Assembly (NCBI RefSeq): GCF_004210375.1
Contig: NC_134833.1
Location: 147,242,127-147,306,126, forward strand
Source: Tachypleus tridentatus
Taxonomy: Eukaryota; Arthropoda; Merostomata; Xiphosura; Limulidae
DNA: 64,000 nt
Direction: 5' to 3'
The position numbers and the translations under genes were made by a program. Below the pieces are notes generated by a model. That model saw only the letters and a list, made by a program, of their open reading frames with translations, did no database searches and was not told where the DNA came from. Shown in pieces: positions 8,155-59,900 of this stretch. Each line of letters opens with the position of its first letter. The first letter of the stretch is position 1.

Positions 8155-10260
8155 ATTTACAATAATAACTGATACAAACAGTGTGACGTACTTGTTGTTT
8201 ACAATTGTTGTTTACATTTATAATAACTGATACAGTGTGATGTACTTGTTATTTACAATAATAACTGATACAAACAGTGTGATGTACTTGTTATTTACAA
8301 TAATAACTGATACAAACAGTGTGAAATACTTGTTATTTACAATAATAACTGATGCAGTGTGACGTACTTGTTATTTACAATAATAACTGATACAAACAGT
8401 GTGATGTACTTGTTATTTACAATAATAACTGATACAAACAGTGTGATGTACTTGTTATTTACAATAATAACTGATGCAGTGTGACGTACTTGTTATTTAC
8501 AATAATAACTGACACGGTGTGACGTACTTGTTATTTACAATAATAACTGATACAAACAGTGTGAAATACTTGTTGTTTACAATAATAACTGATACAGTGT
8601 GATGTACTTGTTATTTACAATAATAACTGATACAAACAGTGTGTGTGATGATACTGTGTTATTTACAATAATAACTGATACAGTGTGATGTACTTGTTAT
8701 TTACAATAATAACTGATACAAACAGTGTGATGTACTGTGATTTACTTGTTATTTACAATAATAACTGATACAAACAGTGTGACATACTTGTTGTTTACAA
8801 TAATAACTGATACAGTGTGATTACGGTGTGATTTTGTTATTTACAATAATAACTGATACAAACAGTGTGAAATACTTGTTGTTTACAATAATAACTGATA
8901 CAGTGTGATGTACTTGTTATTTACAATAATAACTGATACAAACAGTGTGACATACTTGTTATTTACAATAATAACTGATACAAACAGTGTGACATACTTG
9001 TTATTTACAATAATAACTGATACAAACAGTGTGACATACTTGTTGTTTACAATAATAACTGATACAAACAGTGTGATGTACCTGTTGTTTACAATAATAA
9101 CTGATACAGTGTGATGTACTTGTTATTTACAATAATAACTGATACAGTGTGATGTACTTGTTATTTACAATAATAACTGATACAAACAGTGTGATGTACT
9201 TGTTATTTACAATAATAACTGATACAGTGTGATGTACATTTACAATTGATACAGTGTGATTTATTTACAATAATAACTGATACACAGTGTGTACTTGTTA
9301 TTTACAATAATAACTGATACAAACAGTGTGAAATACTTGTTATTTACAATAATAACTGATACAGTGTGATGTACTTGTGTTTACAATAATAACTGATGTG
9401 TGACTACTGTTATTTACAATAATAACTGATACAAACAGTGTGACATACTTGTTATTTACAATAATAACTGATACAAACAGTGTGACATACTTGTTATTTA
9501 CAATAATAACTGATACAAACAGTGTGATGTACCTGTTGTTGTTGTACAATAATAACTGATACAGTGTGATGTACTTGTTATTTACAATAATAACTGATAC
9601 AGTGTGATGTACTTGTTATTTACAATAATAACTGATACAAACAGTGTGATGTACTTGTTATTTACAATAATAACTGATACAAACAGTGTGATGTACTTGT
9701 TATTTACAATAATAACTGATACAAACAGTGTGAAATACTTGTTATTTACGATACAGTTGTTATTTACAATAATAATAACAAACAGTGTGATGTACTTGTT
9801 ATTTACAATAATAACTGATACAGTGTGATGTGTGATACAAACAGTGTGAAATACTTGTTATTTACAATTATAACTGATACTTGTTGTTTACAATAATAAC
9901 TGATACAGTGTGATGTACTTGTGTGATGTATTTTATTTACAATAATAACTGTGACAGTGTGATGTACTTGTTATTTACAATAATAACTGATACAAACAGT
10001 GTGACATACTTGTTATTTACAATAATAACTGACACGGTGTGATGTACTTGTTATTTACAATAATAACTGTGACAGTGTGATGTACTTGTTATTTACAATA
10101 ATAACTGATACAAACAGTGTGACATACTTGTTATTTACAATAATAACTGTGACAGTGTGATGTACTTGTTATTTACAATAATTGATACAGTGTGACGTAC
10201 TTGTTATTTACAATGATAATTGGTACAAACAGGGGGACATACATGGAATTTACAATAATC
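8155..10260 (+). repeat. 2.1-kb minisatellite, 42/38-bp units
   Basis: About 50 tandem units of TTATTTACAATAATAACTGA followed by TACAAACAGTGTGATGTACTTG (42 bp). A frequent short variant lacks four bases (GATACAGTGTG instead of GATACAAACAGTGTG; 38 bp). Diverged and truncated units interrupt the array (for example near 8640, 9235-9290, 9745 and 9930). Long and short units are interspersed, suggesting expansion by repeated local duplication of mixed blocks. Runs of 42-bp units keep a 14-codon period, so spurious ORFs appear on both strands. Confidence 0.95.
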
Positions 10261-14282: not shown

Positions 14283-17200
14283 TTACACAGTTGGTTCTGG
14301 TTTCCTTTCTTCAGTGTTACCATCAGATGGTTCACTCTCTGTAGGACAACTGAGATCCAAAAACCTATGGAAAAACAAACTATTTTACAGAGCCTTAAGA
14401 TGTTTGTTTTGCTAACCAAATGTTCTTCATATAATATCCTGACCTCAATAAGGTTTAAAGCACCCTTCTCCAAACATCTCATTTAATTAAAGTAACTGGT
14501 GGTTCACAGAATTATAGAACTTATAGAAATATTCATTAATGAGTCATTCCACAAAACATAAACAATAAGCTATGAAAATATCACATTGTGTTAACAAGAC
14601 GATTAAATTGTTTTACTACTCGTGTTAATGGAGCATTTTGTGGCAAATTCATATAAAATGTGAAACATTCGTAACATTCTGTCACAACTGATTACACAAA
14701 TGTGGCATATGGCACTGAACTCTTTCTCAGAACTGATTACACAAATGTGGCATATGTCACTGAACTCTTTCTCAGAACTGATTAATAAAGCACTAACATA
14801 ACACTACATTCATTCAAATCTGACTAAAGTATATAACTCAAGACCTAAAACAATAATTGTGTTTTAAACATTTACTGCATATTTGATTAGACTTTCAGAT
14901 TAACTTTTATTTAATATTGGAACAGAATTTAAAATATCTTTATAAAAGTTAGCCATTAATAAAAGATTCACATTTTATAAAATCAAAAAATAATAATAAT
15001 TGGTGTAGCTTTCTTAAGATCAGAAGAAGGTTTAACTTATTAAAATGACTTCTTCCAGCCTAAACAAAACTTTATGTTAAATAACCCCGATTACGATAAT
15101 TGTGTTAAGTGTACAAAAACATACAACTTGTGCCACAAGAAAACCAAATACATTCCAACACTAATGAAGTGTTGTAATTAGTTTTTTTTTAATGCTGTAT
15201 TCTACAGGTTAACACATTCTCACATTGGTTGTAGTATGTCTTCTAATGGGACAACAGGCCATGCTACCATGGGTTTGGTTGAGAACAGTGAAGTACCTTC
15301 TTCTGGTTCTAATCCACATATTTTATCACTGTAGATGAAGTTAAGCATTGTATCTTCCACCTTGACACCAACTGTAGGGCTCTTTTCTTCACCTGTACTA
15401 TCTGAAAAGTATGTAATTAATCAGATAATAATTAGAGAAACATCATGTTTACACCTTATCTTACAAGTCATGTGAAACAAATAACTTATCAAATGTTTCA
15501 TTTAACCCACAACAATACTGATTAACAAAAAGATACATTTACTTTAGAAAATAAATTATTTTTTGAAACAGACATACACACAAACACATTTCTTTTTTAT
15601 AAAATTCAAACTGGTTTGCAAAAATGTCAGTGGATCTTAAACAAGTTCATTAATATTCTGTTAATTCTCTTCAGTAACAAGATATCTAAGACAACTTAAT
15701 ATCTATTTAATGTTACCTTCAAATTAGAGTAGGCTATGTACTTTTAATGAAACTAAACATCAAGCCAGCAATCAGTGTAGCTAATTAAACATACTCTTCT
15801 CATATTCAACTGTTTCATCAGCTGCTTACTTGCCCTATTAACAACATTTTCGGCCATAATCCCAATAATATGTTACAAGGTTCAACCAGCTAAGTAAATT
15901 TATATTAGTCCCAGAACAATACAAATCAATCTTTGTAACAAAACTATTATGATAAATAATAAATTGAAATAAAACTAATGACACTTGTTATATCTACTTT
16001 TCTATATACAATAATGGGAATGAAAGTAACAATTATAATTTATATATTTGTAACTTACACAAACCTCGAGTGTCACCATGAATTTCAATGAAAGTAACAA
16101 TTATAATTTATATATTTGTAACTTACACAAACCTCGAGTGTCGCCATGACTTTCAATGAAAGTAACAATTATAATTTATATATTTGTAACTTACACAAAC
16201 CTCGAGTGTCACCATGACTTTCAATGAAAGTAACAATTATAATTTATATATTTGTAACTTACACAAATCTCGAGTGTCACCATGACTTTCAATGAAAGTA
16301 ACAATTATAATTTATATATTTGTAACTTACACAAACCTCGAGTGTCACCATGACTTTCAATGAAAGTAACAATTATAATTTATATATTTGTAACTTACAC
16401 AAACCTCGAAAGTGTCGCCATGACTTTCAATGAAAGTAACAATTATAATTTATATATTTGTAACTTACACAAACCTCTAGTGTCACCATGACTTTCAATG
16501 AAAGTAACAATTATAATTTATATATTTGTAACTTACACAAATCTCGAGTGTCACCATGACTTTCAATGAAAGTAACAATTATAATTTATATATTTGTAAC
16601 TTACACAAACCTTGAGTGTCACCATGACTTTCAATGAAAGTAACAATTATAATTTATATATTTGTAACTTACACAAACCTTGAGTGTCACCATGACTTTC
16701 AATGAAAGTAACAATTATAATTTATATATTTGTAACTTACAAAAACCTCGAGTGTCGCCATGACTTTCAATGAAAGTAACAATTATAATTTATATACTTG
16801 TAACTTACACAAACCTTGAGTGTCGCCATGACTTTCAATGAAAGTAACAATTATAATTTATATATTTGTAACTTACACAAACCTTGAGTGTCGCCATGAC
16901 TTTCAATGAAAGTAACAATTATAATTTATATATTTGTAACTTACACAAACCTTGAGTGTCACCATGACTTTCAATGAAAGTAACAATTATAATTTATATA
17001 TTTGTAACTTACACAAACCTTGAGTGTCACCATGACTTTCAATGAAAGTAACAATTATAATTTATATATTTGTAACTTACACAAACCTTGAGTGTCACCA
17101 TGACTTTCAATGAAAGTAACAATTATAATTTATATATTTGTAACTTACACAAACCTTGAGTGTCGCCATGACTTTCAATGAAAGTAACAATTATAATTTA

Positions 17201-20200
17201 TATATTTGTAACTTACACAAACCTTGAGTGTCACCATGACTTTCAATGAAAGTAACAATTATAATTTATATATTTGTAACTTACACAAACCTTGAGTGTC
17301 ACCATGACTTTCAATGAAAGTAACAATTATAATTTATATATTTGTAACTTACACAAACCTTGAGTGTCACCATGACTTTCAATGAAAGTAACAATTATAA
17401 TTTATATATTTGTAACTTACACAAACCTTGAGTGTCGCCATGACTTTCAATGCCTAGTACTTCTTCTACACTATGGGACTGGAGACTTTTGGTAAATTCA
17501 TCCCACTCAGAAAAACCTGGAGTCTAATTTAAAGACAGAACAAAACTGAAACTTGTAACAGGATTCTACAATTAAGACATTTCACAGAAAGTTTAAAAAA
17601 TTATGTTTATTAGAAGAAAAAAAAAGTTAAAAGGACATTTTGATGTAATATATGAAATACTAAACAATGGTTAATAAAACAGATTAGTCACCACCTATTT
17701 CATTCAAAAACAATTATATTTTAATATCATAATGAATTTGGTTTTAAAAACCTCTGAATAATAACTAAAGTTAAAAACACACACATTAGTTTTACACTCA
17801 TTCCAGTCTTTTAAACTCCACTTAATTGTCTTTGGCAGTTTGTTAACGACACTCTTCGCTTACGTCGATGCACTCTCTGTCAGTTACTGCATATAAGCAT
17901 CTCATTCAGATAATGTTATCACTTTTTCAAGATTAATACCATCCCAGTCTCTAACACCAGCTCTTAGTGGGGAGGATTTGGTTTTGTTTTGAACTTTGTT
18001 GCCAAAGCTACATGAGGGCTATCTGCACTAGCCATTCCTAATTTAGTAGTGTAAGACTAGAGGGAAGGCAGCTAGTCATCACCATCCACTGACAACTCTT
18101 GGGCTATTCATTTACCAATGAATAGTGTGATTGACTGCACATTATAATGCCCCCACAGCCGAAAAGGTGAGCACGTTTGGGATAACGGGGATTTGAACCC
18201 ATTATCTTCAGTCCATGAGTCGAGTGCCGTAACCACATGATCATGCCGGGCCCAGGGGGTAAGGAAGGGTGGGAGATTGTGAAAGGAAGTTCTTATTTAA
18301 GCATCAAGAGTCTCACAAACAGTGAAACTTTTCAGTGTTACTGGAGTGGAGAACTGGGAACCAACAAAAGAACCAAAATGTTCTTTCTCTTTCCTTCCTC
18401 CAAATTAGCACAAAAATGAGTGAAGTTTTTGCAATGGCTTTAGTACAACAGAAAAGTAGTTTAAGAGCATGTAGAAACGGGCTATCATTATTCACAGTAC
18501 GTATGGATGGGCCTACATAAAAAATAGTCACCTCATTCATGCTATTACTCTGTGATGCTAAAGTTGATTTATAGCCTTATTTGAGAACCTAACTACATTA
18601 TCAAGCATTTCACAGTTTCAAAAAAACAGTAATGTTATTCTGTTCTTCTACCACATGTATCCTTACAGGGAAATAATTAAAAGAAAAACTATTACTTGGC
18701 AGTGTGTTTAGTTTATGAATGTGTTATTTCCATGTTTCATAAAAAACAGTTTCATTTCTAGACACTGGATAACAACACAAACCGTTCTTACATAACAACC
18801 ATTTGTAACTTTTCATTGCACAAACATGATATCTGCCAAAACAATTTCTGTAAAAATAGAGAAAGAAAAAAAGAATAATCCAAATTAATATTAAAGGTAT
18901 CGAAGAGTCCAAATATTTACACAACATACAAATCTGTATACATATTATTGAAATTTGAGTTTTAAAATATAAGTTTCTTAATAATCAAACATTATATAGC
19001 AATCTATATGACAGCTGTGTGGATATGCATGGCATTATACTTCATGGTTTGGGATGCGTCTGACATGTTCCCTATTATTTGGCATGACCCTAATATGTGG
19101 TGGAGTCAATTATATGTGCATGGAGTAAAGTTATTAGGCATGGATTCTGTAACTATCCCCTTAATATCAATCCAGCTCTCCAAGGTATTTGTACCATGCT
19201 GGAGAAATCATTCCAGCTTCACTGGCTTCTAATGTAATTCAAAATTAGAGGAATGATTATCATATTAACAATATATATTACAATTGAATTATAGAAATAA
19301 AACAAATGCTCACTTATCTTCCTATTTAAAATAAATTGTTAAAAAAAAAAGAAGAGAAATGAGTTATAAAATATGTTTTGCAATAATTAAGTATGATGTA
19401 AGGATACCAATGTCAAACAAGTACAAAACAAGGTTAGGATAAACACATAAAAGTAAGTACAGAGTCAATCTTACAAGATCATGGTTATTAGCTACTGTAA
19501 GATTGTATAGAATTGTCCAGTTTAAATGCTTTTATTCAAACCTGAATTCAAGCAACTGACAGGAATTCAACATTCAACTGTAAATATATATTATTCTTGG
19601 AATGATTTGGCTGGTAACATAGGAAATGTTTTATATGGTTCTGTGTTTCCATGTTTCTATATTTTATCACTGCTATTACTAACTCAGATATTTTTTTTAA
19701 ATATTTTTTATTACTTGTTAATTTTACATCAGTGGTGGAAATGTTTTTGAAACTCTGATAAAAACATGGTTTGCAAAGTTTTCTATGAAATGTAAAATTT
19801 TACTGGATTCAATGGAAGAAAGTCTTGCCTTACTAGTCTGTTGACATTATTATTATTTGCAAGGTATGGATTTGGTGTATCCAGAATTTCAGAAAGCATT
19901 TAACAGTTTGTACATGAAAAGCTTGTTAAAAATAAAACAATAAACTCTTTTGGTGTGGGAGGCAAACTGACTCATTGGATGGAAAAAAAGCAGAGGATTG
20001 TTGTAAATGGAGTTCAATCAAACTGGATTAACGTAGCAAGTGGAATACTTCTGTATGCAGTGTGAAACAATTTTGCTCATCATCAGTGGCACAGATGAAG
20101 AAATGGTCAATGAATTACTTAAATTTGCTTATGATATTAGGGCTTTGGGTGGTCAGGTCAAGTCAGAATAATAATAGTAAGGGGTGGTTATTGCTGGGAA

Positions 20201-33480: not shown

Positions 33481-34064
33481 AGTATACTTGGCTCCCAGAA
33501 AGCTGAGGCAGAAACTAATAACCCGGATGTGAGTGATTAAGACTCCTACTGGTGGCTTTTAGCCTCATTTCTGGAAAATAGTAGTTTACATTAATTACAT
33601 AACAATAAGTTCTGTTATACTTTAAAAGAAAACAATTTAATATGTTATATACTTTATCAAAATTTTGTAGATGTAGTTAACAATCGTATTTTCTAAGCGC
33701 CATTAAAGTTTATGAATTTCATTCATGGTCACGTGAGAAATGAACATTAAAAGTTAACTTAAATAAACTGTTATAATTATTTAGTTTATTTAAAGTTTGC
33801 ATATTTGAGAATTTGACGTAAATTTAGGACAAAGACTAGCTGTATATAACTGTTCCTAGTAGATAGAAAAAAGGAAAGATGGAAATCCACAAATACAGCA
33901 GCACGTAGACTATTTTTATATAGTCGAAAAGTGAGACTTGACTATTACTCTTATAGCAAGCTCTTTGGCTCTAAAGTTTAGACATGTTTCTGTGACAACA
34001 AGTCATGAAATATGGATCTAGAGATTCACAGCTGAAGCACACTAAAGAACAGACCACATCTATT

Positions 34065-34564
34065 NNNNNNNNNNNNNNNNNNNNNNNNNNNNNNNNNNNN
34101 NNNNNNNNNNNNNNNNNNNNNNNNNNNNNNNNNNNNNNNNNNNNNNNNNNNNNNNNNNNNNNNNNNNNNNNNNNNNNNNNNNNNNNNNNNNNNNNNNNNN
34201 NNNNNNNNNNNNNNNNNNNNNNNNNNNNNNNNNNNNNNNNNNNNNNNNNNNNNNNNNNNNNNNNNNNNNNNNNNNNNNNNNNNNNNNNNNNNNNNNNNNN
34301 NNNNNNNNNNNNNNNNNNNNNNNNNNNNNNNNNNNNNNNNNNNNNNNNNNNNNNNNNNNNNNNNNNNNNNNNNNNNNNNNNNNNNNNNNNNNNNNNNNNN
34401 NNNNNNNNNNNNNNNNNNNNNNNNNNNNNNNNNNNNNNNNNNNNNNNNNNNNNNNNNNNNNNNNNNNNNNNNNNNNNNNNNNNNNNNNNNNNNNNNNNNN
34501 NNNNNNNNNNNNNNNNNNNNNNNNNNNNNNNNNNNNNNNNNNNNNNNNNNNNNNNNNNNNNNNN
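34065..34564. other. assembly gap (500 N)
   Basis: Exactly 500 N, the conventional filler for a scaffold gap of unknown size. Open frames drawn across it are artefacts. Confidence 0.99.
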
Positions 34565-34738
34565 TAAATAGCCCATTATGCATGTTTTCATTGAAAGAAT
34601 CATGTTTTCAAAAGGTTTGTCAATTTGAAAGACACTAACGCATGAATGATATCAATATTTAAACCTTACCTTTCGTGATTAACACAATCCGTGGGTCAAA
34701 TTTTAAACATACTTGTTTTATTTATTACGTACTTCATA

Positions 34739-38290: not shown

Positions 38291-40679
38291 AGAAGGTAGC
38301 TTGCTTTGATCTTAAGTTAATATGAATGTAATTTGTATATTGTATGTATCATTAATCACAGTTAGCTTCGGCTGTTATAATCGCAATATTTAATATATTC
38401 ACTTTTTTGGGCGACTTTTTCTGAAAAAGCACATTTATGTAAGCCTTCAAAGTGTTATTTTAAAATACTTTAAGATACACAAAGAACAACACAGTTTTGA
38501 AAGATGCGTTTTGATTTCCAATGTCTTACTAAAATATTTTCATCTTTATTGAAAGTGTATCTAATTCGTTAGCATTTTGAGTCTCGAGTTATTTTATTTA
38601 CAGGCATGGTTATGTAAAACTATATTATTCCTCAAAATGTACGAGTATAAATTGTATGTTCATAAAATGTCTCCTACTACATTCCAGGATCACAGTTTCT
38701 GTTTTCAGTAAGGATGCCCTGTTCAAACGTTACTACTTGATAGGTTGTGGTAAGTATTTGAGAATAATACGAATCTTATTTTATTTATTTGTTGTACCTT
38801 GCTATGATGGGTTTAGTTTTAAGCCTTAGCTACTTGACATATTTAATTAACTGGTACTATATTAACTACTTCATTTAACTCTTGTTACCAGGAGCTGAAA
38901 CATTTTACAACTATTGTTTAAGCAGTTTCAACATCATTATTATTACCGTTTTCTTATCATCCATGTGTGTGTGTGTTTATCACCAATATTTCTCGAAAAC
39001 AGTTGGGTAGATTTGAACGAAAGTTAGTATACACTTGGACTATGACCCAACTGAGAAGCGATTAATATTTGGAGGGCCGATGTCAGAGGTAACAGCGAGT
39101 TCACGAAAAAAATCATATTTGTTACCATGGAGACCGATTTTGTACACTACTTTTGTTTTATATCTTATACAAAAAACGAACGGATTTGTTAAAACTTTGT
39201 AATCATACGTGGAATATTATTACCTATTGTTCGTTGATGTTCATAACGACAAACATTCAGACACATTTTCATATGTTTTAAGGACCAAATATGGTCAACG
39301 TAATTCAGGTACTGGTATTATTGTTTAAAAAAATCAATATTGTATTATTATTTACTGAGTTAAAGGTATTGCGTTGAGCAGGTTACAAAATCATAATTTA
39401 GAATGCACTTAGTTACTGATAAATTTAACGCCATCCTTTTGTTTCGCTTTAAAACATCGTGTAATTATGAATCTGATTTAGAAACATTGTTGTAGATCAG
39501 CACTTGGTTGAGTGAGGCCTGTTTTTTGGAAAAATAACTCTATTTAAACAAACCTGTTTCTTTTATAAACAATACAAAACATGGAAACGTACCAACTTGT
39601 CGGGATTAATATAAAACATTACACTGAATATTTGGTTTGCGAGTTATTTTTATACGTTTGGTTAACATTATGTTTAGTTTATAATAACAAGCCTTGACTA
39701 TACCATTTCTTTCCAAATTGAGTATAAAAGATTGTTTAGTCTCAGATGTTAAGAATAACGATATGGATGTTAGATAGGTATAAAATTATGAAAAAATAGA
39801 TATATGAAGTTCAGATAGCAAGACGATGAAGAATATAGACCTGGGTGAGAAGTGGTCGGTAATACAATGAAGAATAGGAATTTGGGTGTGAAATAGTTAG
39901 GAAGACGATTAAAAATAGATGTGGATGTCAAGCAGTCGGCAAGATAATGCAAAATGGAGATGTGAGGGATAAGTAGTTAGAAAATAGGTAAAGAACAAAT
40001 GTTAGGATGTCAAATAATTAGCAAGAATTTCAAATAGTAACACGATGAAGAATGGAGATTCGGCTGGAAAGTAGTGCGTAATAGAACAAAAAATGTATAT
40101 TTGGGAGTTTAATATATAAAAGGACAAGAATAGAGATTTGAGTGTCAAATAGCTAGCAAGACGATGAAGAACAGAGACGTGGATGTTAAAAGGTCTGTTA
40201 GATAATGCAAAATGGAGAACCGAGAAAAATACTCAGAAAAAAACGTATGAATAGAGATTCGGATGTCATATACTTATCAAAGCAATGAAGAATAAAGATA
40301 TGGATGTCAAACAGTTAAAAAGTAGATGAACAATAAAGATGTGGAAGCCAGATGGTTATAAAAATATGAAAAATAAATAGATGAATTTCAAATAGCAAGA
40401 CGAAAAAGAATAGAGATGTTTGTGGAAAGTGGTGGGTAACACAACGAAGATTAGAGATTTGGGTGATAGATATATAGAATAGGAAGAATAGATATTTGAG
40501 TATCGAATAATTAGGAAAAGGATGAAAAATAAAGCCTGCATGTGAAGTGGTGGGTAGATAATGGAAAGTGGAGATCAGATGAATAAATACTTAGCAAAAA
40601 GGTTTCAATAGAAATTTGGAACCCAAGTACTTATCAAGGTGTTAAAGGATAGACATATGGATGTCGAACAGTTAATAGA
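38291..40679 (+). repeat. 2.4-kb direct duplication, copy 1
   Basis: Starts at AGAAGGTAGCTTGCTTTGAT and is over 90 percent identical by eye to 61991-64000. It ends with a degenerate satellite. The whole block could be a dispersed element or a segmental duplication; the left junctions are abrupt, with unrelated flanks. Copy 1 keeps about 345 bp of satellite (about 40156-40500) that copy 2 lacks. Confidence 0.92.
38685..38746 (+). other. exon-like segment in the duplicated block
   Basis: Acceptor ctacattccag, then an open phase reading ITVSVFSKDALFKRYYLIGC, then donor GTAAGT. The same segment in copy 2 (about 62385-62446) keeps both splice sites and the frame but has three substitutions, all amino-acid changing, which argues against selection on a protein. 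Confidence 0.25.
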
Positions 40680-40870
40680 TAGGTGAAAATAAAGATCTGG
40701 ATGCCAGATTTTTATAAAAATCTCAAGGAGAGGTCTATTAATTTCAAATAGTAAAACGAAGAATAGATCTATGAATGGAAAGTGGCGAGTAATAAAACGA
40801 AGAATACAGATTTGGGTGTTACATAGTTAGAAAGACGTTCAAGAATGTAGACTTTGAGGTCTACTTTCCA
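39740..40870 (+). repeat. degenerate satellite, about 40-bp units
   Basis: Roughly 27 units of GATGAAGAATAGAGATTTGG then GTGTCAAATAGTTAGCAAGAC with heavy variation. Its minus-strand reading gives the hydrophobic pseudo-ORFs here. The same satellite reappears at 63440-64000. Confidence 0.8.
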
Positions 40871-41084
40871 TTATATAATACAAAATTGAAATATGAGAAA
40901 CAAATGCTTAGAAAAATCCGAATAAATTGTATTAAAGTGTGTGAAAGAAAGTTTTTTTGGTTTTAAAGCGAAGTTTAATAGTTTGTTTGAGAAGGAATAG
41001 AAATACAGACCGATACACGTTTGGTTATGCATGTACATTAGGGGTATCAACACTGAATTACAGTAGCTGTAGATGAATCTTTCC

Positions 41085-41090
41085 TTTATT
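41085..41090 (-). terminator. poly(A) signal of the peptide-precursor gene
   Basis: AATAAA on the minus strand, 185 bases after the stop at 41276. It is the first such hexamer downstream. Confidence 0.5.
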
Positions 41091-41275
41091 ACAATGGAGG
41101 AAGCTTTTACGTGGTTCCGTTCAATGAAGTTTCATAAACCAAAGAAAACTTCCGAAATACCAGTTCGAAGACAGCGATAAAGAACTGTACAATTTAATTT
41201 ATACCCATGATACAAAAGTTACATATGTGCTAATGACACCACAATATTTCACTAAAAAAGAGTTCATAGTTCTAG

Positions 41276-41827
41276 TTAATATCCTTCCGTTGGAGAGACC
41301 GTGGTTGCGCCCTCGCCAGCCTCACGACGCCGACGTTCTACACCTTCCGTTGGAGAGACCGTGGTTGCGCCTTCGCCAGCCTCCCGACGCCGACGTTCTA
41401 CACCTTCCGTTGGAGAGACCGTGGTTGCGCCTTCGCCAGCCTCCCGACGCCGACGTTCTACACCTTCCGTTGGAGAGACCGTGGTTGCGCCTTCGCCAGC
41501 CTCCCGACGCCGACGTTCTACACCTTCCGTTGGAGAGACCGTGGTTGCGCCTTCGCCAGCCTCCCGACGCCGACGTTCTACACCTTCCGTTGGAGAGACG
41601 GTGGTTGCGCATTTGCCAGCCTCCCGACGCCGACGTTCTACACCTTCCGTTGGAGAGACCGTAATTGCGCCTTCGCCAGCCTCCCGACGTCGACGTTCTA
41701 TATCCTTCGTCATTTGATTATGGTCCGTAACGAATACATTGGATATAGATGAGACTGTAGGATAAAAATGCAATAACGTGAGGTTTAAATGCAAAATTAA
41801 AATTACAAAAACAATCTTACACTCCAT
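41276..41827 (-). CDS. secreted multi-copy peptide precursor (signal peptide + 7 RRRR-bounded repeats)
   Basis: An intronless 183-residue frame. Residues 1-4 are MECK, 5-21 a hydrophobic core (IVFVILILHLNLTLLHF), with a plausible signal-peptidase site near PTVSS|ISN (residues 25-28). A linker to residue 44 ends in KDIE. Residues 45-183 are seven 20-residue units, RRRREAGEGATTVSPTEGVE; unit 1 has AITV, unit 2 has GKCATTV and the last ends GY before TAA. RRRR fits a furin/prohormone-convertase site, so cleavage and basic-residue trimming would yield up to seven 16-residue acidic peptides, EAGEGATTVSPTEGVE or variants. There is no Gly-Lys-Arg amidation signal. The start context is GCGATGG. A TATA box lies about 70 bp upstream and AATAAA 185 bp downstream. 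The 60-bp units are GC-rich in AT-rich DNA. I know no homologue. The organisation is that of neuropeptide, venom or antimicrobial precursors; function is inferred only. Confidence 0.7.
   Translation of the reverse strand: MECKIVFVILILHLNLTLLHFYPTVSSISNVFVTDHNQMTKDIERRRREAGEGAITVSPTEGVERRRREAGKCATTVSPTEGVERRRREAGEGATTVSPTEGVERRRREAGEGATTVSPTEGVERRRREAGEGATTVSPTEGVERRRREAGEGATTVSPTEGVERRRREAGEGATTVSPTEGY
41279..41705. repeat. GC-rich 60-bp minisatellite, 7 units
   Basis: Units of CTTCCGTTGGAGAGACCGTG, GTTGCGCCTTCGCCAGCCTC and CCGACGCCGACGTTCTACAC. Five units are almost identical; the unit at 41581-41640 (CATTTG) and the unit at 41641-41700 are the most diverged. A period of 60 keeps every frame open, and CGACGCCGACG encodes Arg-Arg-Arg-Arg on both strands. 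It forms the repeat region of the gene at 41276-41827. Confidence 0.95.
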
Positions 41828-41896
41828 CGCCTCCCAATTCTAAAATACGTATAGAATAACTAAAACCATAAACCACTCCTTCTTCTCATCTGCTGG

Positions 41897-41904
41897 TATT
41901 TATA
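41897..41904 (-). promoter_or_regulatory. TATA box of the peptide-precursor gene
   Basis: TATAAATA on the minus strand, 70 bp upstream of the ATG at 41827. A start of transcription about 30 bp downstream (near 41873, in GGAGTGGTTT) would leave a 5' UTR of about 45 bases. Confidence 0.6.
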
Positions 41905-42690
41905 CAACTCGTCTTTGATAAATTCAGAGAGCTCTGAAATTGCGCATGCTCACATGCCGTAAAGAGAACAGTCCGTATGCATTGTTTGATAGAGGGATGT
42001 AAAGTTGATTGCCGGTCTCTTTCCCTATACATAGGTTCCTTACTATGTGCATTTTGGGAATATTCTCTAAACAGTATTATAATTATCGTTGATTGCGCTA
42101 CGTACGGATGGCACGGACACTAGTTTTAAATTAATACAAAACTCATCTAGATTTTCTGATCCACATGTCATGAAAAGGTACATATAGTGTCTTACCTACA
42201 GTAATCGCTCTTTTATTAGAAAGATACACTTTCTATTAACTTATAGAGCGAAATCGTATACCTGAGCTTTGACCATTATGTTTATTATAATACTATCTTA
42301 AAGTCTGGAATCTATTAAATACATTTTACAACCAACTAATCCTCGTATACCATCTTACAAAAATAGTAAACAAACATATATAAGAAAAAACCAAATCATA
42401 GCTCAGTCGACAAGTAGAACTGGCTACTGAACTTAAAAAAAAAAAACAAAAGGATTGAAACTGACAAAACATAGGAACCCAGATTTTGTATTTATAAAAT
42501 ATTTTAAATTATTCATAAAAGAAATATTTTAAGGTTGCCTGATTTAAAACTATAATGATTCTAATGAAATTCCGAGATAGCTATACACAAAGTAGGTGAG
42601 TTCCTAATATCAGTCATCACTTAAATAATGTCTGATTTTAGATTCAGTAAAGGAGAAAGGATTTCAAACACTTTTAATGTTATTTAATTA
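41905..42690. other. intergenic, upstream of the peptide-precursor gene
   Basis: AT-rich, with a slightly GC-richer patch at 41930-42130 that could hold upstream regulatory sequence. No exon seen. Confidence 0.35.
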
Positions 42691-43700
42691 ATAATGTATG
42701 TTCCATTATTATTAATTACTCCCTGCCAACGATTCACAAGCTTCTGAATGCAACTTCCATAAAATTGTTGGGGTTTGGAGGAAAAGAATGTAGAGAGGGT
42801 AGTTTTGAGAGCTTCATGTGTTCCAAGCTTTTTTCCATCAAGATAGTTCTGCAAACTTCAGAAGAGATCATAATCAGATGGGGCAAATTCTGGAGAATAA
42901 GGGGAATGATGGAAGTTTTAACCAGTCTAGCTCTTCAATCTTTGCAGATGTAATCCTTGTTGTATGGGGCCGTGCATTATCCTGGTGTAACACAACACCT
43001 TTAAGATTGACAAAAGCAGGCTTCTTATCTTTCAGTGCAACATTCAAGCGCACGAACTGTTTTGACAATAGAAGTCTTAAGTAATACTTAGATTGAGTGG
43101 CACCAACTCAAAGTAGAGCACACCAACGATATACCACCAAATGCTTAACAAGACTTTTCTAGAGTCTAAGTCCATCTTGGGCTGTGCTTTACCCAATTTA
43201 CCTGCACTGATCCATTATCTGCGGCACTTAAAAACTGTTATAAAATATCAATTTTTTTACCTCCAGTCACTAACATGTCCAAAAACGTTGAATTACGTTC
43301 ACGAGAAGACAGATAGGTACAAATGCCCACTCTTGTTCTAAGGTTGCCTTCTGTCAAATCATGGGGAACCTATGTTTCAAGAGTTGACACCTTTCCAAGC
43401 TGTTGTAGATGACGGTGAACTGTTGAATGGGTTGAATTAAGCTTTTGTGCTAGTTCTCCAACTGTAACAGCAAAATCTTCATCAAGTGCACCAGCAGAAA
43501 ATCAGGAAATAAACTCAACAGGACAACCTGAACGTGGTGCATCACTTAAGCTGTAGACACATCCATCTTCATGATAGTTTATTTTATTGATGATCTTAAA
43601 AAGTGGACCTGGTTTAGTTTCTTTCATTTGTCTGGACAGGTGTATACACGTCTTAGTATATATTATAGTCATTACAACCTTCTAAAAAGACAGAAATGGT
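42690..43700 (-). pseudogene. mariner (Tc1/mariner superfamily) transposase pseudogene
   Basis: Minus-strand fragments in correct order over about 1 kb: the helix-turn-helix part TVGELAQKLNSTHSTVHRHL with QQLGKV, VPHDLTE, a degraded VTGGKK corresponding to the VTGDEKW box (first catalytic Asp lost), then GVVLHQDNARPHTTRIT with the second catalytic Asp, then PSFPLFSRICPI (compare PPYSPDLAPSDY). Stops and frame changes occur throughout. The terminal inverted repeats are not resolved. Confidence 0.88.
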
Positions 43701-44214: not shown

Positions 44215-45888
44215 CAGTGGAGTTCGTTGAGTCAGTCTCAGGTGTTCGGCGAAGGTCAAAACACGCACACTGTGTGTGTGTCCATTCCGTTCATTCCACT
44301 CGTATGATTTGTGACGCCATGCCCACTTGGTTTGTTTGTTTGTTTGTTTTGGAATTTCGCACAAAGCTACTCGAGGGCTATCAGTGCTAGTCGTCACTAA
44401 TTTAGCAGTGTATGACTAGAGGGAAGGCAACAAGTCATCACCACCCACCGCCAACTCTTGGGCTACTCTTTTACCAACGAATAGTGGGATTGACCGTCAC
44501 ATAATAACGCCCCCATGGCTGGGAGGGCGAGCATGTTTGGCGCGACCGGGATGCGAACCCTCGACCCTCAGATTACGTGTCGCACGCCTTAACAAGCTTG
44601 GCCATGCTGGGCCTGCCCACTTGGCCATCATTGGCTGCGGCTGATCACGTCACATCACTTGGCCTTAATATCTGTGCTGCAGAAAACTTCGTGCGTTTAG
44701 TAGTCGATTGTGACTGTAGTAATCCTGCGTCAGTTTTTATTTTTTCCTAAATTTTCAATCTTGAGCGAAATAGTACCCTGAAGCACCGCATCTCCAAAGA
44801 GCTATGTAATGAAATGGGCTCTGAATTTGAGGTACTTCTGTGCCATTCTAAAAATCGGTGGTTATCCCAGGGAAAGGTACTGAATCGTGGTTTTGCCATG
44901 CGTGTGGAATTAGCCCTGTTTTTGCGAGAGCACCAACATTGTCATGTTGATTGCTTCGAAAATCTGAGTACACTCTAATTTTGGCGTACGTGACCGATAT
45001 CTTCAATGCTTTCAGTCATTTCAATCAACAGATGCGGGGCGGTGGGGTCAACATCATCGAAGCGGTAGAAGACCTGAAGGCTTTTAAAAAAAGCTACCTT
45101 TATGGAAACGACGAACAGAGAATGATATCTTTGCAAACTCTCCCCTGCTGGACGACTGTGTAAGTGAGATCGAAGATATGTCTCAAATCGGAGACATTTC
45201 TGTACTCGGGGAACTGAAGCAAGCAATTGCCATGCACTTAGATGAGCTCGCAAAGTCTCTCGACGGATACTTCCTCACCAGAGAGTCATATCCAGCATGT
45301 GTGAGAAAGCCGTTTACGTTTAGTGTTGCGACAGCAGATGTCAATACCTCGACGAAATCGTTGAACTTCAGCAGAGCCAGGTTCAACAACAACTTTTCAG
45401 AACAACAACGCTCTCAACGTTTTAGTGTCACCAAATCGTAGGGTACCCTCTCATTGCTTAAAAAGCCCTTGAGATACTCATACCGTTTGTTACAACGTAT
45501 CTTTGCGAGCAATCCTTTTCGAGGATGGTAGACATAAATACCAAGAAAAGGAACATACTTTGTTGCGAAAATGATATGAGAGTGGCACTTGCCAAGGTGA
45601 AGCCGCGCATTTCTGAACTTGTCTCTGAGAGGCAACAGCAAAAGTCACATTGATTTGCAGTAAATATTCATTGAGTTATGTTTTGTTTTTGTGTGAAATT
45701 CATGTTTTGTTGGTTTTGTTCTTTGAACAAAGTCATATTGTGTGCAACTGAAGCATGGCTCATTTTGTGCACTAGTAAAATATTTACTTATGTTTTGAAT
45801 TTGAAAAATCATATTTTATTTTTCCAATTACGAAGGGTTTAGTGAAACTTCTGAGGTTCAATACCTCTAACAAGGTTAGGAACCACTG
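44215..45888 (+). mobile_element. hAT transposon (ZBED5/FAM200-like transposase), degraded, with 8-bp TSD
   Basis: The ends are CAGTGGAGTTCG at the left and, reverse-complemented, CAGTGGTTCCTAACC at the right, flanked by identical CACTAAAG. The transposase is read in the plus strand in broken frames: NRWLSQGKVLNRGFAMRVEL at about 44850-44910, ILAYVTDIFNAFSHFNQQM at about 44975-45035, a middle segment with ISVLGELKQAIAMHLDELAK at about 45198-45255, and the C-terminal dimerisation region FVTTYLCEQSFSRMVD, CCENDMRVALAKVKPRISEL, ending at TGA near 45652. The N-terminal BED finger and first catalytic part are missing, so the copy is internally deleted and dead. Confidence 0.88.
44320..44624 (-). 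mobile_element. group A SINE nested in hAT, with 11-bp TSD
   Basis: The SINE body is 44331-44613 (minus), from TTTGTTTGTTTGTTTTGGAA to GGCCATGCTGGGCC, flanked on both sides by TGCCCACTTGG (44320-44330 and 44614-44624). The variable-length duplication next to the T-rich end is typical of LINE-mediated target-primed reverse transcription. It is younger than the hAT copy it interrupts. Confidence 0.95.
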
Positions 45889-47018: not shown

Positions 47019-47880
47019 CAGTGATGGAATTCAAATATTCTAACAACCGGTTATACTTCGCTTTACACACCACAGTTTTGTGTGATTAAAATAACAACAA
47101 CAATATCTTACTCAAATAATTTATTCAACATGCTTTAAATACTTCCAAATTGCCATTTGATTATCATGAAAATTTTTATTCCCTCCACGCTTGAACCCGT
47201 TGTGATCAGCTGTGTTTATTTTCATAGCCAGATTTGAACTGGAAAAGTGGGATTCTGTGAAACCACTGGGAGGCCAATCAAATCAATTGTCATCAGGTTT
47301 GCCATATTTTCAACTGTAAGGCGGCTTCTTTTATCTGAATATATAATATTCATTATTAAAAACCCTTTTTCTGCTTCTGCGGAACTAAAAATATAACTAT
47401 TGATAATATTTTTAGCCTTTTGTACAGTTCTTGAAATCTCATGATTATGGTGATTTCGAAGGATATTTTTCACATAGTCACAGAAATCATTAATGCTGAT
47501 TTCGTGATGAAAGAACTTACTGAATTCATACAATTTGTCATATGCGTCTTCCCAACGCAACAATTTTATCAGTACTCCAAAAATTTGGTTCAAGTATGTT
47601 TACCAGTTCATGAATTTTATTGTCATTTTCTTGTGCATTATTTGTTAATTTTAAGCGATCATAATTCATAATATTTCTCATCGCCTTTAGAGTTTGCTGA
47701 TACACAGATGGTATCAACAGAGATACCGGGTGTATTTTCAAAGTGTGTGTGTGTTGTTGCATGGACCGCCACACTAGGTTTTTCGTGTGTACAAACCCAT
47801 GATTATAGGTTTCTAGTGCCTTATACTTACTTCTGTTCCAATGTGAATCATGTAGATTCAGGTAATAAATATTCATGTTG
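47019..47880 (-). pseudogene. hAT transposase C-terminal remnant (KIAA1586-like)
   Basis: The minus strand carries the hAT dimerisation motif SSAEAEKGFLIMNIIYSDKR with SRLTVENMANLMTIDLIGLP (compare SSAECERGFS.MN.I..DKRNRL), preceded by WEDAYDKLYEFSKFF and, in another frame, QTLKAMRNIMNYDRLKLTNN with ELVNILEPNFWS. The frame changes near 47560. Just left, CAGTGATGGAATTCAAATAT and CTAACAACCGGTT resemble the terminal repeat of such elements (47019). The opposite end is not found, so the element is 5'-truncated. Confidence 0.75.
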
Positions 47881-48745
47881 CTGGGGTTCCAATTCCAATG
47901 GTGATCTGCAAGCTACCCAACTCTTTAATGAAATGTAATAGTGACAGATGTACATGTTGATATATAGGAGACAGTAAACTACATTTCCAATGATTAACAG
48001 TATGATGACAGATTCCACACCAACCAGAATTCATGACAGTCAGATGAATTTAAAAGCTATAAACTTAAGCTACATGCTAATAACTTAAGTATTTGTTCTA
48101 TTAAAAACAGATGACAAAAATAGAGTTATTTGTGTGTGGAGACAAAAAGAAGAAATTCCTCCAGGTTTCATAAAACTTCCATTGGTTCATTAAAGGCATA
48201 AATGTAATATAGACTCGATAGAGCTATTTTAGAAAAAAATTTTGCACCAAATATTTATAATTTTATGAAACAGGTTTCGTGTAGTTTTTATAAAAAATTC
48301 ATTGGAATTACAACCATCTGTATAAAATGTAATAGTGTCATATTCTACTATATTTTCCTACTTCATTTATAAAATTATTTCTAGAATTGTCGAGATTTGT
48401 TTCAAAACTCTATAATACATATTGGTAATGAAAGTATCAAAGAGTTTTGAACAATATTAATCTTGACTATATCACTTTCGCGCGAAATTATTTTTTCAAT
48501 CTTTTCTAATTAAAATTTGTAAATTCTTTAGATCTTGAGTGTTGACGAGTGAAACTCATTGTTTGGTATTATTTGTGTTGAATTTCTCAACCCTGATTTT
48601 TACTTTTAAATTGTATTTTAAAACGTGGGTAATCACTGGAATTTATAAGTTCAACCTGGTAAAACTGATGCCGCAGAACCTTTATGTAGCAATTTATTTT
48701 ATTGGACATTTGGTGAAATTATTATTATCCTGTTTTCCATTTTGG
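47881..48745. other. AT-rich intergenic, no feature seen
   Basis: A hydrophobic 73-codon ORF at 48539-48760 runs into the next SINE and is not credible as a gene. Confidence 0.4.
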
Positions 48746-56280: not shown

Positions 56281-56978
56281 TGATAACAAATTAAGTTTTA
56301 CTTTGTTTGTAAATCCATTAAGTAACAAACTAAATTAGCAATTACAAAATAAACACACAAATATTAAAATAGTTTTGTAAGCGTGTGTCTAGGACACCTG
56401 TTAACATCGATCAAGCACCTTTGAGCTACGTATGACCTGAGAAGCAAAGTCTCGAAAGCACAAGAAATGCATTCTTGATGCTTAGTCATACAGTTAAGTG
56501 CTACAAGTCAAAATTACGGTCTATCTCGAGAGCAATTCAGGGTGTAAGTTCGGCCTTTATCCTTGGTATAGGTTATCTAAAGTGGGTGGAACACCTTGTT
56601 GTTTAAGACTCCTCCATACACGGCACTGCAGACAGCAGTTTTCCCTTATTTGTGTACAAAAATAACTATGTTTTTTTTTAGCATTTCTTCAGTAACTTTC
56701 CGTATTAGTTTCTGTATTAAATTAACTTATTCACTAAATATTAGAGGAGTGTCGATAAAAGATTAACAAAAGTGTACTGACTCTGATGATCCAGAGATGA
56801 CTGTATTCATAGGCTGTGAAGATCCAGAGATGACTGTATTCATAGGCATTGAAGATCCAGAGATGACTGTATCCATAGGCAGTGAAGATCCAGAGATGAC
56901 TGTATCCATAGGCAGTGAAGATCCAGAGATGACTGTGTCCATAGGCAGTGAAGATCCAGAGATGACTGTATCCATAGG
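56281..56978 (+). repeat. tandem duplication copy A (left part), interrupted by hAT
   Basis: From AAGTTTTACTTTGTTTGTAA through TTCAGGGTGTAAGTTCGGCC and GTGTCGATAAAAGATTAACA it parallels 60870-61380. It continues after the hAT at 60742-60795 (AATTTCGCAA ... TTTCTGCTGACAGTT), matching 61415-61460 of copy B. Confidence 0.8.
56788..56978 (+). repeat. 33-bp minisatellite (5.8 units)
   Basis: GATCCAGAGATGACTGTATC followed by CATAGGCAGTGAA, starting at 56788, 56821, 56854, 56887, 56920 and 56953; the sixth unit is cut by the hAT end. Eleven codons per unit give an apparent DPEMTVSIGSE repeat ORF on the plus strand that runs into the transposon. Copy B of the duplication has a single diverged unit near 61368. 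Confidence 0.95.
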
Positions 56979-59900
56979 CAGGGGCGTAGATATGTTACAC
57001 CCGATGGGAGGGATGATTTTCGCAACCACTTACGTGTACTGTTCAATTTGCAAATTGGTAATCTCTGATTACGTGAACCTGAAATCTGTAAACATGCAGT
57101 CACAGAGTAATCTTGTTGCCACAATACTTCAAGGTTTCCATGTAGGTTTATATAAGTGAGGTGTTGTGAACAGTTTTCAAAATGTTAATAGAATAAAGAC
57201 AAATGTGTCACAAATTAACTGCCACATGAATTTATTCCTGCACACTGCACAGTATAATATATGGCCATTATACTTGACAAGGATACTAATAACTTTCATT
57301 GCATGAATTACCTTTTCAAATATTAATAAAATTAGTAATTACCCTTGATAAGTTTACATCTACTGAAAAACTGTTCATGTTGTTTGATAAAAATAATTAA
57401 AATGTCTTTGCGAACTTTTGAAACTTACCCATCAATGCAATGTAGCACATGATTTTTCATACTTTTCATTGTAGTAAGATTCATTTAGTCCTCATGTTCC
57501 CAAACGTTGACCTTCTTTGTGATGATCTGTTTATGAATTTTTCATAAGCTCTTCTATATTTATCTTGTCGACCTCATTTTTGAGTGTGACAAACTACCAC
57601 ATGGTAGAGGCGGCACTGAGACATAGTTGACCTTAACCACGTTTTCAACCGTCTTAATGAAGAAAAGCTGCGTTCACATTTTATAACATTTTATAAGTTT
57701 ATAACCGAGTTCTCAATCTTGCCACATGTGATCATGTTCTCAAGTGCCATAATATTGCCTCAAGTCATTGTTTTCCGCATTGAATCTAGTGGTCAGATGT
57801 TCTATGGCTGTTTTCACAAATTCAAAATATTGGCTTCTGTAGTAATCTCTAGCTGTTGTAGAATGGTGTGCTGAGCCATCACCTGTGATTCTTCTAGGGT
57901 GTCTGCGAATGCGTGGTAGTTCAATAGACACCAGATCTAGAAAAGTTACCTTTTTCTCAGCTTCATCAAATATATTGTTGAAATTTTCCTCAACTGAGCC
58001 ATCAACAATCCTAAAACTGTCTTTCCTTTCTCAAATCTGTCCAGCAGACCTCGTAATTTCACTGCTACATCTGATTTTTCATTTGCTAATTCAGACAAAG
58101 AATCAACAATGTCACTGTAGTGATCATTAGCACATGTAATTGCAGATAGACGGCACAACCAGCGTGTTGGACAGAGTGGGCAGATGCATTTACCTGGACC
58201 ATTGCGGCTGTCTGACGATACAATATTTTCAAAGATTGTCTTGTATTTCCCTGACCTCTGAAGCAAGACACCAAGTTCATGTACCCACTGAATAGAATCT
58301 CGAACACATTAACAAGCTTCAACTGCATGTTGCATTGTTAAACTAGCCTTGTGTGCTCCGCAGTGAAAAACAAAGCTAAAGGTTGCTTCTCTTTTATTTT
58401 TGCCTGGCATCCACTCTACGCACCAATCATGTTAGTGGTTCCATCATAAGTTTGTGCCCTTAATCCTGATAGTGGTAAATTGAGTCTACTTTGTACATCA
58501 AGTATAGTCGAGGATATTGTTTCACCAGTTGTATTGGAAACACTGTACAAACCTAGAAATATCTCATGGACGTCAAAGTTCTCATCTACGTATCGTACAC
58601 ATTGCTTCCTGTTCGGCACCCGTAACACCTTGAGTGCCATCAACCATTAATGCAAAGATTTTATTTTGCCGCACTTTGTGTGCTATGTTCCTCAGTATTT
58701 GATGACTGAACATCTCCATTATTTTATTCTGAGCCTGGGGTGATGTGAATGTGGTTTACTTTAACAAGTAGACCGTCAGCTCAGAATCTTCCTCTTCCGG
58801 GAGCTTCATTACCTGCAGGAAGATACCCTCCGTATCAGTATGTCCACGTAATGCTAAACTTTGATGTAGTAAGAAACGTAAACTTCTGAATATTTTGGCT
58901 AGACGTTTTTGCATTCTTCTTGCTGATTCTATTTTCCATCATGTAGCTGGACAGTCACTGGAGTTACATCAAGTTAACCTTCTGGAGATGTAGCAATTCT
59001 GTGCTGAGAGGAGGATTGATGTTCGTTGAATTTCTGTTTTGCCTTTATCCAGTTGCAAAAGCCGGTGGATATGAAGGTATACTCGACTGGCCTCTCAATT
59101 ATCTTGTAAAAGGCCTCTATTTTCCGCCTTGGCACAATGAAAGCATATGACTTTTGAGTCTGATTGTCGAAGTGCAACCATGGGAACTCAAATCACTTGC
59201 CCTGGAAGTTGATATATTGAGATTTTGCTTTCTGTCGTTGTGTTAGTTGTGCGTCTAGATAATATAGCTTTCCACACTGTATCTGTGGAGTGTTAGATTT
59301 TTCATTTCTGCACAAACTTGTTTCACAACTATCTGGTGGTTCATGATGTGCAATAGTTGCACAAAAATTTTCAGACTCGTCCTCTGATAAACATGGTATT
59401 TCCTCTGTATGAAAAGTTTCTATTCCTTTGCCTGAGGTTGTTGGATTATCTGCATCTGCATTGTCACTTATAGTACCAGTAACTGACTTGTAGAACTGTC
59501 TAATATCGGAAAGTTTCAGACGCTTGCTTGTCATAATTGGAATCTGTTTCACAGATGACTCAACAGGCTAAAATACAGTCTTTATTGAAAACTCTAACGT
59601 ACAACGAACGAAGATAGAATAGAATGGAATTAGGACTGAACTGTACAATGTATTTAAGTCGAACGCGCTTACCTCACAGTGACTACCGAGCCGACAGACC
59701 ACCTGGACATCGCTGGGACAATAATGTGTGCTAGTTACAACACAAGTAATTGCAAGTTTCTAGAAAAATTCTTAAACAATCACAAATATATTATATTCCT
59801 GTTAAAGCTCATCAAAAGACAAACACGTTGTGATATAATGTCTATAAGCATGTCTATTAAATAAAAACACCTAAACAAAAACTAGCAATACAATTCGAGT

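Follow-up and report, generated by a model that had tools for sequence, protein, structure and literature searches.

The open reading frame and its array

The window, by which we mean the whole 64-kb stretch of DNA analysed, carries on its minus strand an open reading frame of 183 aa (41827–41276, ATG to TAA), its longest ATG-to-stop frame free of N. The frame encodes a hydrophobic start, a linker and then seven units of the type RRRREAGEGATTVSPTEGVE, and the preliminary description of a 183-residue minus-strand frame with seven tetra-arginine-bounded repeats was thereby confirmed. Residues 1–26 (41750–41827, minus strand) consist of MECK followed by IVFVILILHLNLTLL, with a hydrophobic core at residues 5–19 and a peak hydropathy of 3.29. 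Hydropathy combined with a small-residue rule, a simple rule and not a dedicated predictor, was positive for this N-terminus, and the rule predicted signal cleavage after S26, with S27 also possible. Residues 27–44 (41696–41749, minus strand) form a linker between the likely signal and the first RRRR.

Beyond residue 44 lie six units of 20 residues and one of 19, the last ending in EGY-stop; each begins with RRRR and continues with EAGEGATTVSPTEGVE or a near copy of it. Tandem Repeats Finder placed the array at 41283–41708, with a period of 60 bp, 7.1 copies and 96% matches. Four of the seven units, numbers 3–6, are identical in DNA and carry the consensus RRRREAGEGATTVSPTEGVE (unit 3, 41516–41575; unit 4, 41456–41515; unit 5, 41396–41455; unit 6, 41336–41395; all on the minus strand). 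The variant units are unit 1 (RRRREAGEGAITVSPTEGVE, 41636–41695, minus strand), in which T is changed to I; unit 2 (RRRREAGKCATTVSPTEGVE, 41576–41635, minus strand), with E to K and G to C; and unit 7 (RRRREAGEGATTVSPTEGY plus the stop, 41276–41335, minus strand), which is the end of the array. Units 2 and 7 had already been described as drifting, and the T to I change of unit 1 had been overlooked. All seven boundaries fit R-x-K/R-R, with EA next, and an E precedes every RRRR; a glycine for C-terminal amidation is absent. Cys is present in unit 2 and absent from five of the six 16-residue peptides and from the 15-residue one.

The base composition of the array is unusual beside that of its surroundings: G+C amounts to 63%, with 55 CpG in 426 bases, as against 30% in the coding DNA directly before the array and 26–42% in 2-kb steps over the rest of the window. 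The high G+C may have arisen as the array turned over under biased gene conversion.

Other repeats and frames were observed elsewhere in the window. A second in-frame, coding-like array (56767–57159, plus strand) comprises six units of 33 bp, each encoding EDPEMTVSIGS or a close variant, within a frame that runs from ATG to stop over 120 aa from 56797 and gave no Pfam match at E 0.01. A 68-bp minisatellite at 16019–17452 is unusually homogeneous (21 copies, 98% matches), and a 42-bp array of about 2 kb at 8232–10259 has about 49 copies with 77% matches. Three frames of about 117–125 aa (45088–45441, plus; 47222–47912, minus; 57946–59567, minus), which we take to be reminiscent of hAT/ZMYM-type transposase fragments, had no Pfam match at E 0.01. 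Just downstream of the precursor gene, at 40000–40900, lies a member of a dispersed repeat family that also occurs near 39 kb and 63 kb. The 500 N of the window form an assembly gap at about 34060–34570.

Chance control and flanking signals

A 20-base piece of the unit, searched with at most 3 mismatches, gave 7 matches, all inside the array, as against 0.00 on average over 100 shuffles; the seven-unit array is certainly more than chance. Because the 60-bp period is a multiple of 3, several frames are open across the array, as evidenced by stop-to-stop frames of at least 131 aa that span the array wholly or for the most part in each of the three plus frames and in a further minus frame. Since the period leaves these other frames open, the repeat alone is little proof of a gene, and the chance test was therefore aimed at the signal-like start. 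On the plus strand, a 143-aa ATG frame (41233–41664) passes through most of the array; it is probably not coding, with none of eight unit differences silent in it and no signal-like start seen by eye.

In the chance test the array was placed beside random repeat-free pieces of the window in 20,000 draws, with an independent piece for each strand, and frames without a stop in the first 100 array codons were admitted. A signal-like start was defined as an ATG, an N-terminus of 20–70 residues, a 10-residue mean hydropathy of at least 2.0 near the start and a small-residue cut site. Such a start arose on either strand in 2.5% of the 20,000 placements, and one as hydrophobic as that observed (3.29) in 0.25%; for the minus strand alone, the values were 0.8% and 0.065%. 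The percentages serve as guides, because the thresholds were chosen after the sequence had been seen and the locus was picked from 64 kb. Within that reading, they are in line with the earlier claim that the signal-like start is no by-product of the open frames of the repeat.

These results bear on the alternative that the locus yields no gene product, a G+C-rich minisatellite lying by chance beside an AT-rich hydrophobic frame and the Tachypleus gene model described below having been called automatically across the same non-coding array. A 60-bp period that leaves most frames open, among them the ATG frame of the opposite strand, is in keeping with that alternative, as are the other minisatellites in the window, and AT-rich DNA often encodes hydrophobic runs. 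The rarity of a start like the observed one in the chance test argues against it.

Signals on both sides of the frame were found where the preliminary description had put them. The candidate core promoter TATAAATA is located at 41904–41897 (minus strand), its first base lying 77 bases ahead of the A of the start codon; the same motif lies 40–120 bases upstream of 33 of the 2361 ATGs in the window, which makes its position mildly informative. The ATG stands in the good context GCGATGG. A candidate polyadenylation signal, AATAAA, is present at 41090–41085 (minus strand), 185 bases beyond the stop, and is uninformative by itself, an AATAAA being found at the matching place downstream of 1003 of the 2361 ATGs. 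If transcription begins before 41869, a short upstream ATG at that position would open a 9-codon frame.

No inverted repeats of at least 14 bases were detected in 40900–42400, and, with the array set aside, the sequence of 40951–43000 had no other match in the window at E 1e-3. The locus was accordingly rejected as a piece of a transposon, since its flanks are unmatched in the window and nearby inverted repeats are absent. Across the whole window, neither Rfam at its gathering thresholds nor a tRNA scan gave a hit. An exact DNA pattern scan of viral contigs was negative in a collection that may omit records near the window's own genome, and a viral-contig scan with the two-protein alignment confirmed 0 of 67 stretches. 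Six prokaryote loci sharing a 19-base piece were attributed to chance in 257 billion bases, again in a collection that may omit records near the genome of the window. The output of a bacterial promoter and terminator scan was disregarded as being without meaning for animal DNA.

A relative in Tachypleus tridentatus

A word-based search with five candidates identified a sole match among 5.77 billion proteins, namely isoform X2 of LOC143226628 from Tachypleus tridentatus (P0001; E 1.1e-51), and a second search, in which two N-terminal parts were aligned, again returned P0001 as the sole match among six candidates. P0001 is a protein of 122 residues from an annotated, uncharacterised gene model. 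Among proteins of about 321–1020 aa, no match reached E 10 in the 7993 candidates sharing most words, which were those scored, and isoform X1 of LOC143226628 was not found among proteins of about 46–145, 101–320 and 321–1020 aa. As far as a word-based search reaches, the family would appear confined to horseshoe crabs, and the window most likely comes from one of these animals, which agrees with the chelicerates named in the preliminary description. The open-access literature, which omits most subscription journals, held no paper with the locus name or with any of three peptide strings, which does not prove that none has been published. The peptide had been called apparently undescribed; this stands for that literature and is qualified by the relative having already been annotated.

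The window precursor and P0001 are identical at 97 of 118 positions aligned without a gap, and share the start methionine, the hydrophobic start, the linker and the register of the 20-residue unit. Within the first 44 residues, 30 are identical: 4/4 in the n-region, 8/15 in the hydrophobic core, 7/11 after the core and 11/14 in the rest (residues 31–44). The seven differences in the core are mostly hydrophobic to hydrophobic, and hydropathy is about kept (peak of 3.07 in P0001 vs 3.29), as is the positive outcome of the small-residue rule. P0001 has four units, the last incomplete, compared with seven in the window; its three full units match the window consensus at 18, 19 and 19 of 20 residues, and in two units T is changed to L. 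It was predicted that a related sequence would retain the signal-like start while the number of units varied, and P0001 bears this out. The shared N-terminus, hydrophobic core and units likewise strengthen the earlier claim that a gene here codes for a precursor with a signal and several units. It should be noted that the conservation of the frame is partly ascertained, because P0001 was found as an annotated frame.

The same comparison returns us to the possibility of a non-coding array. The last unit of P0001 looks displaced by the loss of a single base, which speaks for this possibility. Against it, the methionine, the hydrophobic core and the linker are kept over 118 aligned residues free of gaps, and the label X2 of the isoform implies that LOC143226628 has two or more transcript models. 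In NCBI annotation, isoform transcript models usually rest on RNA reads. Taken together, we consider the absence of any gene product improbable, at a little under one chance in five.

Two analyses were directed at selection. In a neutral simulation, the 132 N-terminal bases were mutated to 14 replacements in 5000 runs without insertions or deletions, which would lower survival; 2160 of the runs stayed free of a stop, and in 327 the ATG and a hydropathy of at least 3.07 were kept as well. This favours selection on the frame and is suggestive, not decisive. Among the units (array end excluded) there are eight single-base differences, five of them silent in the precursor frame (expected fraction 0.31, P 0.065); the plus frame STPSVGETVVAPSPASRRRR also has five of eight silent (P 0.088), and the other four frames have 0 to 2 of 8. 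With eight changes only, the test points in the right direction and is not decisive. The selection signals at the precursor are, overall, weak.

P0001 departs from the window precursor in two further respects. Its first boundary reads RQRC, which does not fit R-x-K/R-R, so the convertase site is kept at three of its four boundaries. Its tail, TTVSQRKV, is what a window unit would encode if any one of three adjacent bases were missing, and after such a loss a TAG within that unit closes the frame. Both RQRC and the final QRKV speak against the idea that all the peptides are alike. Because of the altered boundary and the shifted tail, the P0001 copy may be decaying or the number of units may be of little weight; misassembly is another way in which the copy may have arisen.

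An explanation that overlaps with the one we prefer is that the copy in the window arose by duplication of a Tachypleus-type gene, as an ohnolog or a tandem paralogue, and is now degenerating, or the reverse, with only one of the two functional. Studies differ on how many rounds of genome duplication horseshoe crabs have passed through, with figures from one to three (PMC7210998 and PMC7815833, as far as the excerpts of both go), the N-terminal identity to P0001 is only 30/44, and a single relative does not separate orthology from paralogy. Nevertheless, the frame and all seven sites are intact in the window, and the frameshift-like tail belongs to P0001. We regard a degenerating duplicate as quite unlikely, with odds of about one in ten.

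The gene might also encode a real protein that is secreted and left uncut, such as a short, repetitive, charge-balanced protein of the surface, mucus or cuticle, with arginine blocks that bind polyanions and a glycosylated Thr/Ser/Pro stretch. Each consensus unit does contain four R and four E, TTVSPT would suit O-glycosylation, and P0001 has lost one boundary while retaining the others. A sequence search of the PDB gave six matches at E ≤1, all to Pizza proteins, which are folded repeat proteins (five at 2.1e-07 to 3.6e-06, one at 0.15); by judgement alone we took these for repeat-on-repeat similarity, and a folded repeat protein could also account for them. On the other side, R-x-K/R-R followed by EA at 7/7 boundaries in the window and 3/4 in P0001 resembles known processed boundaries, and no Pfam family exceeded its cut-off. 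The three Pfam matches of the precursor at E ≤1 were all under the curated cut-offs and were dismissed as chance hydrophobic similarity, the best being TraL_transposon (E 0.019, 15.1 bits vs a cut-off of 27); nine other frames of the window and P0001 itself had none at E 0.01. AlphaFold2, run on the two-sequence alignment, produced an N-terminal helix (block pLDDT 79 and 77) and no confident fold beyond it, with a mean pLDDT of 54.8 and a pTM of 0.16. A low-confidence model is what would be expected of an unfolded precursor, and a two-sequence alignment gives low confidence anyway. An uncut protein is, in our estimate, unlikely, at one chance in five.

Predicted processing and comparison with known precursors

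The preferred interpretation is a cleaved product: the locus likely encodes a secreted horseshoe crab precursor that is predicted to be cut after its seven RRRR and to yield an acidic peptide of about 16 residues in as many as seven copies (probability roughly 0.6). The signal peptide would direct the chain to the secretory pathway and be removed near residues 26–27. A furin- or Kex2-like convertase would then cut after R-R-R-R, ahead of E-A, and a carboxypeptidase would trim the four C-terminal arginines to leave EAGEGATTVSPTEGVE. The expected products would be four identical copies, variants with I and with KC, and a 15-residue form ending in Y. A dipeptidyl peptidase might in addition strip the leading E-A, giving GEGATTVSPTEGVE; such an enzyme is discussed, by analogy with α-factor, as the one that removes the EAEP spacers in ant hymenoptaecin (PMC3415428, available portion). 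Release of the peptide and its function are what we infer from this layout. The computed [M+H]+ values are 1533.69 for EAGEGATTVSPTEGVE and 1333.61 without EA, with 1545.73, 1578.73 and 1468.64 for further peptides. As 60 bp make up entire codons, units that recombine unequally would gain or lose complete peptides, and the peptide dose could shift with the frame undisturbed.

The consensus peptide has a net charge of about −4. Since it is without an amidation glycine and without cysteine bridges, it would be neither a typical amidated neuropeptide nor tachyplesin-like. A peptide of the haemolymph or of a secretion, with a role in defence or at mucosal surfaces, is in our view more likely than a classical neuropeptide, because the amidation glycine is absent and the main unit contains no aromatic residue. 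The layout is already known; the peptide family appears to be new. More tentatively, and at somewhat less than even odds, horseshoe crabs, whose defence peptides have been a subject of study for a long time, may carry an overlooked lineage-specific family of secreted peptides that are acidic, cysteine-free, non-amidated, 14 to 16 residues long and made from one chain in as many as seven copies; their dose would be adjusted as 60-bp units are gained or lost, and their sequence would stay near constant between species. If this is true, an orphan secreted peptide would be added to a well-studied 'living fossil' lineage, and the multi-copy precursors with basic cutting sites seen in bees, ants and flies would be joined by a further arthropod case. 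Seven versus four units would then constitute a small natural system for unit number and peptide dose, and the exact computed masses are available for matching against haemolymph data.

Tachyplesin, polyphemusin and other antimicrobial peptides of horseshoe crabs have in common with the predicted product that they are small, secreted and from the same animals. Tachyplesins and polyphemusins, however, are cationic, cysteine-bridged hairpins (PMC9409781, in the part available), whereas the window peptide is at about −4 and has Cys in unit 2 only.

A similar layout is seen in the precursors of apidaecin and ant hymenoptaecin, which have a signal, where the window precursor has a signal-like start, and share with it near-identical units led by a basic site plus an acidic E-A spacer, and a varying number of units (PMC3415428 and PMC11549390, within the sections accessible). 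According to those sections, ant hymenoptaecin has six repeats with RR and EAEP (PMC3415428), and RREAEPEAEP is close to the spacer common in apidaecin (PMC11549390); the window units have RRRR-EA in every case, with a single E-A and no EAEP. The peptides differ as well, those of apidaecin and hymenoptaecin being antibacterial (apidaecin proline-rich), whereas the window peptide is acidic, with a single proline and with RRRR instead of RR. Homology to either was not supported by a match in word-based searches of 5.8 billion proteins or by a Pfam family above cut-off.

The yeast α-factor precursor MFα1 belongs to a different kingdom and has no sequence match to the window precursor, and its pro-region is longer. 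It shares a Kex2-type site followed by E/D-A dipeptides (PMC3415428, same excerpt), and its unit number varies within the species and affects peptide output as measured in yeast (PMC5850478, in the text accessible). In Drosophila, Baramicin A (BaraA) likewise carries, within a single precursor, related peptides in tandem that are set off by RXRR furin sites (PMC8423362, as excerpted); it also releases IM22 and IM24 from the same chain and has no sequence match to the window precursor. On the best reading, by analogy, the window precursor would work like those of apidaecin, hymenoptaecin, Baramicin and yeast α-factor, with an unrelated peptide that is acidic and non-amidated.
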